Source of the DNA: a virus
DNA: 45,551 bases
Virus record (IMG/VR): IMGVR_UViG_3300037235_000080
Span: 1 to 45,551 of that record
Direction: 5' to 3' (one strand)
The position numbers were made by a program, and so were the translations under genes. Of this stretch, positions 18,510-25,890 are shown piece after piece. Position 1 is the stretch's first letter. Every line of letters starts with the position of its first letter. The notes beneath the pieces were generated by a model. The model was given only the letters and a program-made list of their open reading frames with translations, was not told the origin of the DNA and made no database searches.

Positions 18510-20138
18510 ATGACGCTTGAGACCGGTCGCCCGGACGACTCCACCCTAACCAACGCCGACACCGGCTACTCTGACGCCGACCTGGCGGCCTTCGCGGCGC
18601 GCCGTCGCTGGCTCACCGACGCCTGGGATCGCAAGAGCAAGCCCGAGTACAACGGCAAGCAGATTCCGCCCGAGACCACGCCCCGCGGCTTGCCGTGGTC
18701 GATACTGCTGTGGCGCTGCGGCCGCGGTTTTGGCAAGACGAAAGCCATCTCGGAATGGCTGTGGTGGGAGCTTTGGCAGGTGCCCGAGCTGATTGGCCAC
18801 TACCTCGCCGCGACCTCGACCGACGTCGAGGGCACGATATTCGAAGGCGTGTCTGGGCTTCAGGCCGTGGTGCCGGCAGAATGCTTGCGCGGCGCCAGCT
18901 GGGCGAAGGCATACCGCGCCGGCAAGCGGCCACGGCTCTATCTAGCCAACGGCTCGATGATCAAAGGCTTCGCGACCTTCGAAGAGGGCGAGCGCATGCG
19001 CGGCCCGCAGTGCCACCGGCTCGGCGGGGACGAGTTCGCGGCCTGGGACCGGCCCGCCGGCAATGCCGAGAAGGCCTTTGACAACGCCATGTTCGGCGTT
19101 CGGCTGAAGAGCCCCGACGGCTCGCCGGCGCGCGCGGTGTTCGGGACCACGCCGAAGCCGAATCCTTTCCTCAAGAACTTGGAGAAGCGGCCGGACGTCA
19201 TCACGATCACGGGCTCGACATACGAGAACCTTCCAAACCTCGATCCCGCGTTCAGGAACACGATCCTGTCCAAGGAAGGGACACAGATCGGAAAGCAGGA
19301 GATCCACGGCGAATACCTCGACGACCAGTCGGGCGCGATCATCAAGCGCGGCTGGTTCCGCCTTTGGCCGTACCGCGGCCTCGACGGCAAGATCAAGAAA
19401 TTCCCCGAATTCTCCTATGTGCTGATCAGCCTCGACACGGCATCGGAGGAGGAGAACTACGACTGGGACGCCAAGAAGCGAGAGGTCAAGATCGACTACA
19501 CGGCCGCGACCGTGTGGGGAATCTTCAACACCAAGCAATGCTTCACGGCCGAGGAGTTGCGCCGGCTCCAGGTGCGCCATCCCTACGCCGCGGTGCTGCT
19601 CGACTGCTGGGCCATCCGGTACGGGTTCCCGGACCTGCTCGAGAAAGCCCGGGAGATGATGCGGACCAAGTACGGCGCCAACCCGGGCCGGAAGCCCGAC
19701 ATCATGCTGATCGAGAACAAGTCCTCGGGCATCCAGCTGCGGCAGATGATGGTCAACTACGGGGCGCCGACATGGCCCTACAACCCCGGCAATATGTCGA
19801 AGACCATGCGGCTCCACGCGGCCTCGCCCTACATCAAGCAGGGCGGGCTCTTCATCCCCGAGAGCACCGTGGCGGCGCGCCTCGGCCAGCCCCGGGACTG
19901 GGTCGAGCCATTCCTGGACCAGGTCACGGCGTTCCAGGGCGAGGGCTCGACCGAGTACGACGATTATGTCGACAGCCTGTCGCAGGCGGTGATATATCTC
20001 GGAGCGAAGAGCTTTCTCGCCATTTCGCCCCAGGAGTTGCCCGACCCCGACCCCGAGGAGAAGAAAGCGGAGGCCGAGGAGGCGGCGAAGCGGGAGCGGG
20101 AGCGCGAGAAGGCCAGAATTAACCCCTATGGCGTTTGA
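18510..20138 (+). CDS. terL: Terminase large subunit
   Basis: 542 aa DNA-packaging motor. ATPase: Walker A GRGFGKTK (71-78), Walker B region HRLGGDEFAAW (169-179, with Asp174-Glu175), coupling motif FGTTPKPN (211-218). Nuclease: SLDTASEE (Asp309), IENKSSG (401-407, Glu402) and YDDYVDSLSQA (483-493), a usual RNase H-like metal triad. The end is a Glu/Lys-rich tail. The walker B lacks the usual run of hydrophobic residues. Start at 18510 lacks a strong ribosome site. Confidence 0.95.
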   Translation: MTLETGRPDDSTLTNADTGYSDADLAAFAARRRWLTDAWDRKSKPEYNGKQIPPETTPRGLPWSILLWRCGRGFGKTKAISEWLWWELWQVPELIGHYLAATSTDVEGTIFEGVSGLQAVVPAECLRGASWAKAYRAGKRPRLYLANGSMIKGFATFEEGERMRGPQCHRLGGDEFAAWDRPAGNAEKAFDNAMFGVRLKSPDGSPARAVFGTTPKPNPFLKNLEKRPDVITITGSTYENLPNLDPAFRNTILSKEGTQIGKQEIHGEYLDDQSGAIIKRGWFRLWPYRGLDGKIKKFPEFSYVLISLDTASEEENYDWDAKKREVKIDYTAATVWGIFNTKQCFTAEELRRLQVRHPYAAVLLDCWAIRYGFPDLLEKAREMMRTKYGANPGRKPDIMLIENKSSGIQLRQMMVNYGAPTWPYNPGNMSKTMRLHAASPYIKQGGLFIPESTVAARLGQPRDWVEPFLDQVTAFQGEGSTEYDDYVDSLSQAVIYLGAKSFLAISPQELPDPDPEEKKAEAEEAAKREREREKARINPYGV

Positions 20139-21492: not shown

Positions 21493-21868
21493 CCGCGGCA
21501 TCGAGCCCGTGATCGACGCCGAGACATCGCGGCGCCTGGGCGAGCGCGCCAGCCAGATCGGTGATGTCCGCGTGCTCCGCGCGCAGCAGGCAGCGATTGA
21601 CGACGAGGCCACGCGCAAGCAGCGGCTCTCCCGCGACCTCGCCCACCTCTACCTCCGCGACATCTACGTCGACGACAAGCTGGACGTGCCGGCGAAGCTC
21701 CTGGAGATGACGGGCGAGCACGAGGGCGTGTGGCGCCGGGTGCGCGACGGCATGCTGCCGCCACGCCGAGACATCCTCGACCAGAAGAGCTTCCGCGAGG
21801 TCAGGGTTCGGTCGACCACGGCCGAGGCGCTGCTGCGCCGCGACCGGCCGGTATCGTCAAGTGCATAA
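21467..21868 (+). CDS. Hypothetical basic protein
   Basis: 133 aa. GAGGG precedes the ATG at 21467. The N-terminus is very basic (TPRRRRRDRG); the rest is helical and charged (RLSRDLAHLYLRDIYVDDKL, DGMLPPRRDILDQKSFREVR). Ends just before the inverted-repeat cassette. No family recognised. Confidence 0.5.
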   Translation: MTPRRRRRDRGIEPVIDAETSRRLGERASQIGDVRVLRAQQAAIDDEATRKQRLSRDLAHLYLRDIYVDDKLDVPAKLLEMTGEHEGVWRRVRDGMLPPRRDILDQKSFREVRVRSTTAEALLRRDRPVSSSA

Positions 21869-21891: not shown

Positions 21892-22275
21892 CGCGGAACC
21901 ATGCTTATCCGGTTGTTACCCATGAACTAGGAGCGCGGGATGAATAGCTTCCACTGGGTCACGATGGTCGTTCTGGCGATGTGGACACTTGCGAAGATAG
22001 CTCATCGCTACAAAAGCCCCGCCGAACGAAAATCTATCGCAGATGATCGTCGACGGTGCGACGAACACAATGAAAAGATGAACCAGCACTATAGGCGCAT
22101 GAACACGTTCTATGGGCGTTCATATGAAAAGATCGATGAGGGCTGGTGGTCAGAAGATGTAACACTTTTATCTAAATATGCCGGCCTTGTTGCCAGATGG
22201 AAGCCCGGCGGAGACCTTTTCAGGAATGAAATCGGAACCACTGGGTGATAACCGGATAAGCACGCGCGGAACCAT
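21892..22275. mobile_element. Single-gene cassette with 20-bp inverted repeats and flanking direct repeats
   Basis: Left inverted repeat 21903-21922 (GCTTATCCGGTTGTTACCCA); right repeat 22242-22261, whose reverse complement differs at two of 20 positions. Outside them an 11-bp direct repeat, CGCGGAACCAT, lies at 21892-21902 (touching the left repeat) and 22265-22275 (3 nt from the right repeat). The DNA between is clearly AT-richer than the surroundings and holds one gene. This resembles a small inserted element with target duplication, or a regulatory stem enclosing one mRNA. No transposase. Confidence 0.6.
21940..22248 (+). CDS. AT-rich orphan membrane protein inside the inverted-repeat cassette
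   Basis: 102 aa. TAGGAGCG precedes the ATG. The N-terminus has one hydrophobic segment (WVTMVVLAMWTLAKIAH), followed by a charged helical domain (DRRRCDEHNEKMNQHYRRMN) with many Tyr, Lys, Asn and Asp codons ending in A or T, unlike the GC-ending codons of all neighbours. The end is WKPGGDLFRNEIGTTG, and the last codons lie in the right inverted repeat. No family recognised. Codon usage points to recent acquisition (a moron). Confidence 0.65.
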   Translation: MNSFHWVTMVVLAMWTLAKIAHRYKSPAERKSIADDRRRCDEHNEKMNQHYRRMNTFYGRSYEKIDEGWWSEDVTLLSKYAGLVARWKPGGDLFRNEIGTTG

Positions 22276-22295: not shown

Positions 22296-22535
22296 ATGAT
22301 GGTGCTGCCGCCCATGCACCCGGTGCAGAGTTCGAACCTGGAAGCCGTGGGCCACGACGGCCACCACCTGTACGTCCGGTTCCACCCGAGCACGAAGACC
22401 GGCGTACAGGTGATCGGGCGCTACCTCAACGTGCCGGCGGAGCACTTCGACCACATCCGGGATGGCCGCAGCCCCGGCCAGTACCTCGACAGCGCGATCA
22501 AGAAGGGCGGCTTCACCTGGGAGAAATTGCAATGA
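22296..22535 (+). CDS. KTSC-domain protein
   Basis: 79 aa. TAGGAGAG precedes the ATG. It follows the small KTSC domain: VQSSNLEAVGHDGHHLYVRF, then YLNVPAEHFDHIRDGRSPGQ and YLDSAIKKGGF (family: SSxIxxIGYD...L.V.F..G..Y.Y..VP...Y..L..A.S.G.YFN..I). KTSC domains occur alone or fused to lysyl-tRNA synthetase-like or structural proteins; role unknown. ATGA overlap with the next gene. Confidence 0.75.
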   Translation: MMVLPPMHPVQSSNLEAVGHDGHHLYVRFHPSTKTGVQVIGRYLNVPAEHFDHIRDGRSPGQYLDSAIKKGGFTWEKLQ

Positions 22536-23316: not shown

Positions 23317-25890
23317 ATGCCCGAGACCCAGCAGACCGAACTCCCGCCCGACCGTAGAGGTCCTGGTTCAGGACCACCCGGGGACACCGGCGACACCGTC
23401 GCGGAATACCTGGACCCGGGCGATGACGACCAAGACAACGACGACTACACGGTAACGATCGACGGCGAAGACCTCGTCGTCACCATCGGTGAGCCCTACG
23501 AGCCACCCAGGAACCAAGACCAGATCGAGTTCTACGCCAACTTGGCCGCCTATCTCGAGGACCGGCTCAAGCAGTCGCTGGCCACCGACACGCTGCAGAA
23601 GATCGAGCAGGACAAGGAAGCGCGGAAGAAGGGCCAGGAGGACTACGAGGAGGGCATCCGCCGCACCGGCCTGGGCAAGGACGCGCCGGGCGGTGCCGAG
23701 TTCGAGGGTGCATCGCGCGCGGTCCACCCCGGTCTCACGGACGCGTGCATCGACTACGAGGCCAGGGTTATCAAGGAGCTGATGCCGCCCGCGGGCCCGG
23801 TCAAGCAGAAGATCGTCGGCGTCGCCACACGGGCCAAGACCGAGCGCGCCAAGCGCAAGGTCGAGCACATGAACTGGCAGATCACGACGCAGATCAAAGA
23901 GGGCTTCAGCGTCTTGGAGACCATGTTCACCCAGGTCCCGCTCGCGGGTGCCCAGTATGTCGACCAGACTTGGGATCACCGGCTCGGCCGGCCGCGCTGG
24001 GAGTATATCCCGAAGGACCGGTGCCACTATCCCTTCGGCGCCGCGAACTGGCACTCCGCCAACCGCCGGACAGTCGAGCGCCCGATGTCGGCCGTCGACT
24101 ATAAGCACAAGGTCAAATACGGCGTCTACATCGACCTCGACTTCGGCGAGACCGCGACCCGGCCGGAGCAGACCCCGGCCGAGAAGGCCAGCGACCGCGT
24201 GCAGGGCAAGGACGAGCCGGCGCTCAACATCGACGGCGACCGCACGATCTTCGAGACCACGGAGCTGATCGAGATCGATGCCGACCTAGCCCAGGCGCTA
24301 CAAGATCTGGGCGGGGACGAGCAGGAGGGCGACATCCGGCCCTTCATGATCTCGATCGACGAGCAGACGCGCGAGATGTGCGCGATGTACCGCTGCTGGG
24401 AGGAGGACGACGACACCTACGAGCCGATCGAGCACACGTTCGAGTTCCCGTTCATCTATTGGCGCGGCGGCAACGTCGGGCTCCCGCACATCATCGGGAC
24501 CCTATCGGGAGCGGCCACGGGGTCGCTCCGCGCGCTCCTGGACAGTGCCCACATCGCCAACGCGGCCACGGGCGTGATGCTCAAGGGCTCGGGCACCCGC
24601 GGCCAGACCGTGCGGCCGAACATCGGCGAACTGACCGAAATCGACCGCGGCCTCGAGGTCGACGACATCCGGAAGCTCGTGATGGAGTTTCCGGGCAAGG
24701 GCCCGAGCCCGGTCCTGTTCCAACTCCTGGGCTTCCTGACCGACGCGCTCAAGAACACCGTCCGGACCTCGCTCGACGAGGTCGCGTCAGACCAGTCGCC
24801 GAACACCCCCGTCGGGACCACGATGGCGCGGCTCGAGGAGGGCATGACGGTCTTCTCGGCGATCCACCGCCGCGTCCACGCGAGCTTCAACCGCTTGCTC
24901 ATGGGCCTGCACCGGCTCAACCGCCTCTACCTGCCCGACCGCCTCGCGGTCGATGACAACGGACGCGAGATCCTGGTCTATCGCCGGGATTACGAGGGCC
25001 CGTGCAACATCGAGCCCACGAGTGACCCGACGATCTACTCGGACCAGCAGCGCTTCGCCCAGGTGACGGCGGTCCAGCAGCGCGCGCAGGTGCTACCGCA
25101 GGTCTACAAGATCCGCGAAGTCGAGATGTGGTTCCTGAAGTGGCTCAAGATCCCGGACCCGGAGCAATTCCTTCAGGACATCCCGCAGCCGCACGAGCTC
25201 AACGCCGTCAACGAGAACCTGTCGCTCCTGATGGGGAAACCCGTGGTCGCGTTCCCGGACCAGGATCATGCCGCGCACCTCGAAGTCCTGATGGACTTCA
25301 TGCAGGCCGTGGCGTTAAATCCAGGTTCGCCACCCATGATTGCGCAGAAGTTCCTGCCGGGCGCCATGCAGCACGCGGTCGAGCACATCGGATACCTCTA
25401 CGTCGGCCAGACCACGGATCTGATCCAACAGGCTGCCGGCCGTGACGTCGTCGACCTGATGTCGTCCGACGACAAGGTCAAGCAGCGGTTCGACCAACTC
25501 TTGGCCGTGGCGTCCAAGCGGGTGATCCCGCAGTACATGCAGATGATCGCCAGGGCGATGCCGCTGCTTCAGAAGGCACAGCAGTTGCTGTCGTCGATGC
25601 AGCCGCAGGCGCCGATGGATCCGGCCGCGATGGCGGCGCAGGCGGCCGCGATGGCGGAGACGAAGCGCAAGACGACGGCGGATCAGGCGAGCGCCCAGAA
25701 CGATCAGCAGCGCAACGCGCTCCTGGCCGAGCAGAACGAGATCCGGCGCGAGCAGATCCAGGTCGAGAGCGCGACCAAGATCGCGACAACCAGCGCCGAC
25801 AACCAGACCGCCGAAGATATTTCGACTCAGCGGCTGAACCGCGGGCAGGCCCCGGGCTTCACGACAGGCGAATCCATGGTAGGAGCATGA
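23317..25890 (+). CDS. Portal (head-tail connector) protein
   Basis: 857 aa, at the large end of portal sizes and as in podovirus-type phages. Portal landmarks: TDACIDYEARVIKELMPPAG near residue 150, FVPKDR-type strand YIPKDRCHYPFGAANW, MSAVDYKHKV, then FIYWRGGNVGLPHIIGTLSG, NAATGVMLKG, and the wing-to-stem region TSLDEVASDQSPNTPVGTTM plus ARLEEGMTVFSAIHRRVHAS. The C-terminal 150 residues are Gln-, Ala- and Met-rich helix (QKAQQLLSSMQPQAPMDPAA). It forms the dodecameric ring through which DNA is packaged. The function follows from its length, these blocks and its place between terminase and scaffold. Confidence 0.85.
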   Translation: MPETQQTELPPDRRGPGSGPPGDTGDTVAEYLDPGDDDQDNDDYTVTIDGEDLVVTIGEPYEPPRNQDQIEFYANLAAYLEDRLKQSLATDTLQKIEQDKEARKKGQEDYEEGIRRTGLGKDAPGGAEFEGASRAVHPGLTDACIDYEARVIKELMPPAGPVKQKIVGVATRAKTERAKRKVEHMNWQITTQIKEGFSVLETMFTQVPLAGAQYVDQTWDHRLGRPRWEYIPKDRCHYPFGAANWHSANRRTVERPMSAVDYKHKVKYGVYIDLDFGETATRPEQTPAEKASDRVQGKDEPALNIDGDRTIFETTELIEIDADLAQALQDLGGDEQEGDIRPFMISIDEQTREMCAMYRCWEEDDDTYEPIEHTFEFPFIYWRGGNVGLPHIIGTLSGAATGSLRALLDSAHIANAATGVMLKGSGTRGQTVRPNIGELTEIDRGLEVDDIRKLVMEFPGKGPSPVLFQLLGFLTDALKNTVRTSLDEVASDQSPNTPVGTTMARLEEGMTVFSAIHRRVHASFNRLLMGLHRLNRLYLPDRLAVDDNGREILVYRRDYEGPCNIEPTSDPTIYSDQQRFAQVTAVQQRAQVLPQVYKIREVEMWFLKWLKIPDPEQFLQDIPQPHELNAVNENLSLLMGKPVVAFPDQDHAAHLEVLMDFMQAVALNPGSPPMIAQKFLPGAMQHAVEHIGYLYVGQTTDLIQQAAGRDVVDLMSSDDKVKQRFDQLLAVASKRVIPQYMQMIARAMPLLQKAQQLLSSMQPQAPMDPAAMAAQAAAMAETKRKTTADQASAQNDQQRNALLAEQNEIRREQIQVESATKIATTSADNQTAEDISTQRLNRGQAPGFTTGESMVGA

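Follow-up and report, generated by a model that had tools for sequence, protein, structure and literature searches.

What is the short, repeat-bounded unit in a phage genome that follows an open reading frame ending at position 21868 and precedes a KTSC-domain gene (start at 22296), and how could it have arrived there? The window analysed here, an IMG/VR virus record, is 45,551 bases long. It encodes a large terminase subunit (18510–20138) and a portal-like protein (23317–25890), and therefore represents a tailed phage; Caulobacter phage RW and others are among the relatives of the portal (41%), and the presence of Caulobacter phages in that set hints at an alphaproteobacterial host. An earlier note, made from the sequence of the window, had read the unit as a tiny non-autonomous mobile element with a target duplication, or alternatively as a long-range stem closing one mRNA. 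We are confident that the first reading is correct, and we assign the unit to the ISAcr1-like group of the IS1595 family as a non-autonomous transposon, or mobile insertion cassette.

The 20-bp inverted repeat described earlier is real and lies where it had been placed: arms at 21902–21922 and 22242–22262 are 90% complementary, with none expected by chance in the window. The terminal inverted repeats of the element are in fact 23 bp long and imperfect, namely CATGCTTATCCGGTTGTTACCCA on the left (21900–21922, plus strand), backed by a 20-mer recurring exactly in other contigs and by the family consensus of ends, and CGTGCTTATCCGGTTATCACCCA, read inward, on the right (22242–22264, minus strand). 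They start with CATGCTTATCC and, again read inward, CGTGCTTATCC, respectively, taking in CAT on the left (21900–21902) and ACG on the right (22262–22264). The 11-bp direct repeat CGCGGAACCAT reported by the same note is indeed present on both sides, but only eight of its bases are a target duplication. Because comparison of many copies fixed the ends of the repeats, the duplication can be given as the 8-mer CGCGGAAC, directly abutting both ends (21892–21899 and 22265–22272); the additional CAT is the start of the terminal repeat on the left and target sequence after the right copy. The whole element, as delimited by family comparison, spans 365 bp (21900–22264, plus strand) and has a GC content of 0.50, compared with about 0.65 in the flanks, bearing out the lower GC that had been remarked on. 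As also noted before, a single gene (21940–22248, plus strand), coding for 102 amino acids, fills the space between the repeats. The right end lacks an inner motif, CTAGATGTTG, that is common to many other ends, and given this the window element may be decayed.

The ends are conserved well beyond the window. The left 20-mer was found exactly in 16 IMG/VR contigs, in most of them with an inverted partner roughly 300–700 bp away, and a degenerate end pattern retrieved at least 120 IMG/VR stretches. An exact 8-bp duplication flanked 57 of the 86 nearest convergent pairs, compared with a mean of 0.08 when right flanks were shuffled among pairs. With later loci included, 92 intervals could be delimited when one mismatch in the duplication was tolerated, and in 86 the duplication was exact; because this set includes one composite (L135) and one identical pair (L020 and L071), it corresponds to about 90 distinct elements, most of which lie in environmental phages. 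Across the family, the duplication was always exactly 8 bp, with a symmetric target consensus (NWWYRWWN), and the consensus of 124 ends was CATGCTTATCCGGTTNNNRCMCA. The ends were nearly always strand-balanced in 17 whole phage records, in which a reversed control pattern was never found. About 70 elements (median 530 bp) have no transposase, and most of them carry one gene. The composite (L135:2899-3806) consists of two tandem cassettes in which the 8-mer CGTTGATC appears three times (before, between and after them), an array-like arrangement that looks as if the duplication made by the first cassette had been the precise target of the second.

These recurrences bear on a competing reading, in which the unit is an ordinary moron that the phage gained through illegitimate or homologous recombination and its repeats are regulatory, serving as paired operators or as an mRNA-closing stem. 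The unit is, after all, a single AT-richer gene between phage genes, and computed RNA pairing of its ends indicates that a transcript would fold with the ends paired (z = −5). However, many phages have these ends around genes unrelated to one another, with 8-bp duplications that vary between sites, and the ends also enclose transposase genes, all of which contradicts this reading. A classical moron has a promoter and a terminator of its own on either side of the gene; no promoter- or terminator-like pattern was seen between 21600 and 22600 in a scan that covered consensus patterns only. Since what is conserved around unrelated genes is the DNA ends themselves, the RNA stem is best seen as a by-product, and the mRNA-closing stem raised as an alternative in the earlier note is not needed. 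We regard the moron explanation as very improbable.

The affiliation of the cassettes comes from their longer relatives. About 20 longer elements (1.4–2.6 kb) have these ends, are likewise flanked by 8-bp duplications and encode a transposase of approximately 340–348 amino acids, mostly 70–91% identical to the query copy, matching DDE_Tnp_IS1595 and its zinc ribbon (Pfam PF12762 and PF12760) as well as transpos_IS1595 (NCBIfam NF033547). The nearest named element is ISAcr1, whose transposase is about 67% identical to the phage copies, whose ends read CTTGCCTATCCGGTTGTTACCCA, and which also makes 8-bp duplications. In a phylogenetic tree, the phage transposases formed one supported clade (97/84) beside ISAcr1 and elements of sphingomonads; its only members from bacterial assemblies were L136, with a phage-like primase nearby, and L132, located on a 3-kb MAG contig. 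An 8-bp target duplication is stated for the IS1595 family (PMC8101967). The window element has such a duplication on both sides, and its ends are those of the approximately 20 transposase-encoding elements and, with few changes, of ISAcr1. Neither the element nor any other part of the window encodes an IS1595 transposase (a DDE_Tnp_IS1595 domain with an N-terminal zinc ribbon), and the unit is therefore an IS1595-family derivative rather than an insertion sequence itself.

The longer elements usually have the transposase at the end of a tightly packed run of small genes, with up to five ahead of it, or have it after a cytosine methyltransferase-like gene; autonomous copies therefore also carry cargo, unlike ISAcr1. 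Three of them (L127:8412-10676, L089:3979-5875 and L160:1990-4171) contain three to five packed small genes of unknown function with the transposase last, an operon-like layout that is unusual for an insertion sequence. Separately, divergent IS1595-like transposase genes, 27–32% identical to the ISAcr1-like ones, occur near cassettes at L027:10043-10972, L039:4585-5496, L059:5581-6519, L064:6806-7723 and L048:2333-3235. No ISAcr1-type end pair was found around these five genes, which could represent another element type or helpers acting in trans.

Signs of movement were found at several loci. The 365-bp cassettes of L022 and L057, which are unrelated phages, are 98% identical inside, with unrelated flanks and different duplications (CTATATTT and AATGGATA). 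Removal of the cassette and one duplication from L118 restores a frame of 1135 codons. This locus was the exception, and frame restoration did not emerge as a general signal (junction-spanning frames were no longer than those with shifted joins), as expected because the insertions are mostly intergenic. Just behind a helicase-like gene common to 18 phages (39–100% identity), a cassette is present in two and absent from 16. The two cassettes (L042:3599-4233 and L096:4211-4527), in phages related to each other, differ in cargo and in duplication, which marks this position as an insertion hot spot. At the DNA level, no empty sites were seen among the first loci examined, and an exact IMG/VR search for the predicted empty junction of the window phage found none. 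Searches for sister copies of the window cassette by a longer left end, and for relatives of the window phage by its terminase, both returned only one contig, which appears to be the same phage, and the portal relatives are too distant for a base-level comparison of empty sites.

Because the window encodes no IS1595 transposase, its cassette was presumably moved in trans. Some ten of the 25 records in which a transposase copy occurs also contain transposase-less pairs, so that a helper is often found in the same genome; from these records, together with the shared ends, we infer mobilisation by a related transposase. In the mechanism we propose, a transposase supplied by another copy in the same cell, on a co-infecting phage or a prophage, would bind the ends of the window element and insert the cassette between two genes of the phage, at an 8-bp staggered site. 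Transcription reading through the phage operon would then cover the cargo, whose translation would start from the ribosome-binding site in the left end, the insertion thereby adding one working accessory gene (a 'moron') and leaving the neighbours unbroken.

A further explanation treats the unit as a decayed deletion derivative of a longer element, a MITE-like remnant whose 102-amino-acid frame is not a functional gene. The incomplete right end and a protein without relatives speak for it: sequence and family searches with the cargo protein found none outside the contig that is apparently the same phage. However, the frame takes up 309 of the 365 bp, and its ATG lies 6 nt past AGGAG (21929–21933, plus strand), a ribosome-binding-site-like motif within the element that recurs in the same layout in other cassettes, while its TGA falls within the right repeat. 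This matches the plan of the family, in which cargo starts and stops lie at the ends, and other cassettes plainly contain intact known genes; we therefore consider a remnant unlikely, if less so than the moron above. Returning to the window element as a gene-bearing cassette, its cargo, for which a structure model had low confidence, is an orphan protein that belongs to no known family and is probably anchored in the membrane; a hydrophobic helix at the N-terminus precedes a charged helical region. Most likely it is a small accessory protein with a membrane anchor.

The same plan was apparent when cargo frames were picked by a codon-position-weighted choice that ignored position in the element (n = 69). 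In 55 of these frames the first ATG was no more than 65 nt from one end (in 17 of them exactly 43 nt), and in 54 the stop codon was no more than 41 nt from the opposite end. The ribosome-binding site and start are often supplied by the ends themselves (..CACAGGAGCTAGATGTTGATG.. or ..CCTACTAGATGTTGA..), as is the stop (for example, TGTGTGTCTAA-ACCGG, or GGGTGATAACCGG in the window). With start and stop codons at or near the ends, each cassette amounts to almost exactly one translatable gene. Pfam and PHROG matches among 61 cargoes included D12, C5, MT-A70 and N6/N4 DNA methyltransferases, Mom-like DNA modification proteins, Api92-like (DUF1281) proteins, a NADAR protein, an RNA ligase, a MazG-like protein, a DHH phosphoesterase and PAPS-reductase-like proteins; DNA methyltransferases, Mom-like and PAPS-reductase-like proteins were recurrent. 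By raw count, roughly eight or nine of the 61 are DNA-modification genes, and PADLOC matches were largely to methyltransferase models. One ISAcr1-type cassette (L049:1253-2408) has a TnpB/Cas12f-like gene as its cargo, the nuclease of one transposon family being carried between the ends of another.

Few matches were found outside IMG/VR. When 257 Gb of bacterial and archaeal genomes were scanned with a slightly stricter end pattern, only 20 stretches matched. Several of them are phage-like: two equal IMG/VR contigs in length, and others are neighboured by integrase, tail-fibre-like, primase or internal virion proteins. Among 298 genomes from the order of Bradyrhizobium, only one transposase passed E = 1e−60, at 43% identity. 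The 50,697 GenBank phage records contained no close transposase (best 27%) and no match that spanned the ends, and the ends and cargo of the window element had no match there. The few bacterial and archaeal stretches and the absence from GenBank phages make the family look typical of uncultivated environmental phages, as judged from raw counts rather than per-base density. We found no description of IS1595 cassettes in phages in the literature available to us, which proves no absence, and the family is apparently both large and undescribed. IS1595 and MIC-type elements are known; what appears to be new is the phage clade, the nearly coding-exact cassettes and the ends that supply translation signals.

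Phage genomes are mosaics of small accessory genes, and the question of how single genes come to lie, exactly bounded, between others is an old one. The signature described here (23-bp ends, an 8-bp duplication and a named transposase family) marks such arrivals base by base, so that acquisition, empty sites and cargo preference become countable in any virome. Methyltransferase, Mom-like, NADAR-domain and PAPS-reductase-like cargo suggests that the cassettes may be a route for sharing counter-defence genes, and a small phage gene of unknown function between such ends, as in the window, is a candidate accessory function. With slightly less than even confidence, we propose that unrelated environmental phages exchange genes through a common system, a phage-specialised lineage of IS1595 transposons. 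Its ends would have evolved to supply a ribosome-binding site, a start and a stop codon, making every cassette an accessory gene ready for translation, and DNA-modification genes that counter restriction would be prominent in the cargo.

Among known systems, the mycobacteriophage ultra-small mobile elements MPME1 and MPME2 are similar in size and setting; according to PMC3029335, they likewise reside in phage genomes and have inverted repeats and one open reading frame within a similar length (439 bp in MPME1). That the window unit is an MPME, or another phage element unlinked to insertion sequences, is nonetheless extremely improbable. In the same source, MPME insertions gain 6 bp on one side only, where the left repeat meets the target, and no transposase relative is named; MPME content is near-constant. 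The cassettes here, by contrast, have 8-bp duplications and varied cargo, same-ended copies encode IS1595 transposases, and GenBank phage records hold no match to the ends and cargo. Mobile insertion cassettes (MICs) have inverted repeats around a passenger gene, a target duplication and no transposase, and are mobilised in trans (PMC3913671). The window element shows these structural features, as do MIC231 and mic-qnrD. These are chromosomal or plasmid cassettes, MIC231 being moved by the IS231A transposase and mic-qnrD having 24-bp repeats and a 2-bp duplication, whereas the present cassettes belong to the IS1595 family, reside in phages and have ends that supply translation signals.

Integron gene cassettes are also compact single-gene units, with little beyond the coding sequence and a recognition site. 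They depend on attC and a tyrosine recombinase, in contrast to the two terminal inverted repeats and DDE-type transposase seen here. ISAcr1 itself remains the nearest named relative by transposase, with nearly the same ends and 8-bp duplications, but it is an element of approximately 1.08 kb from bacterial plasmids (Acidiphilium and relatives) that carries the transposase only, whereas the phage elements hold cargo genes and the window element has cargo in place of a transposase.
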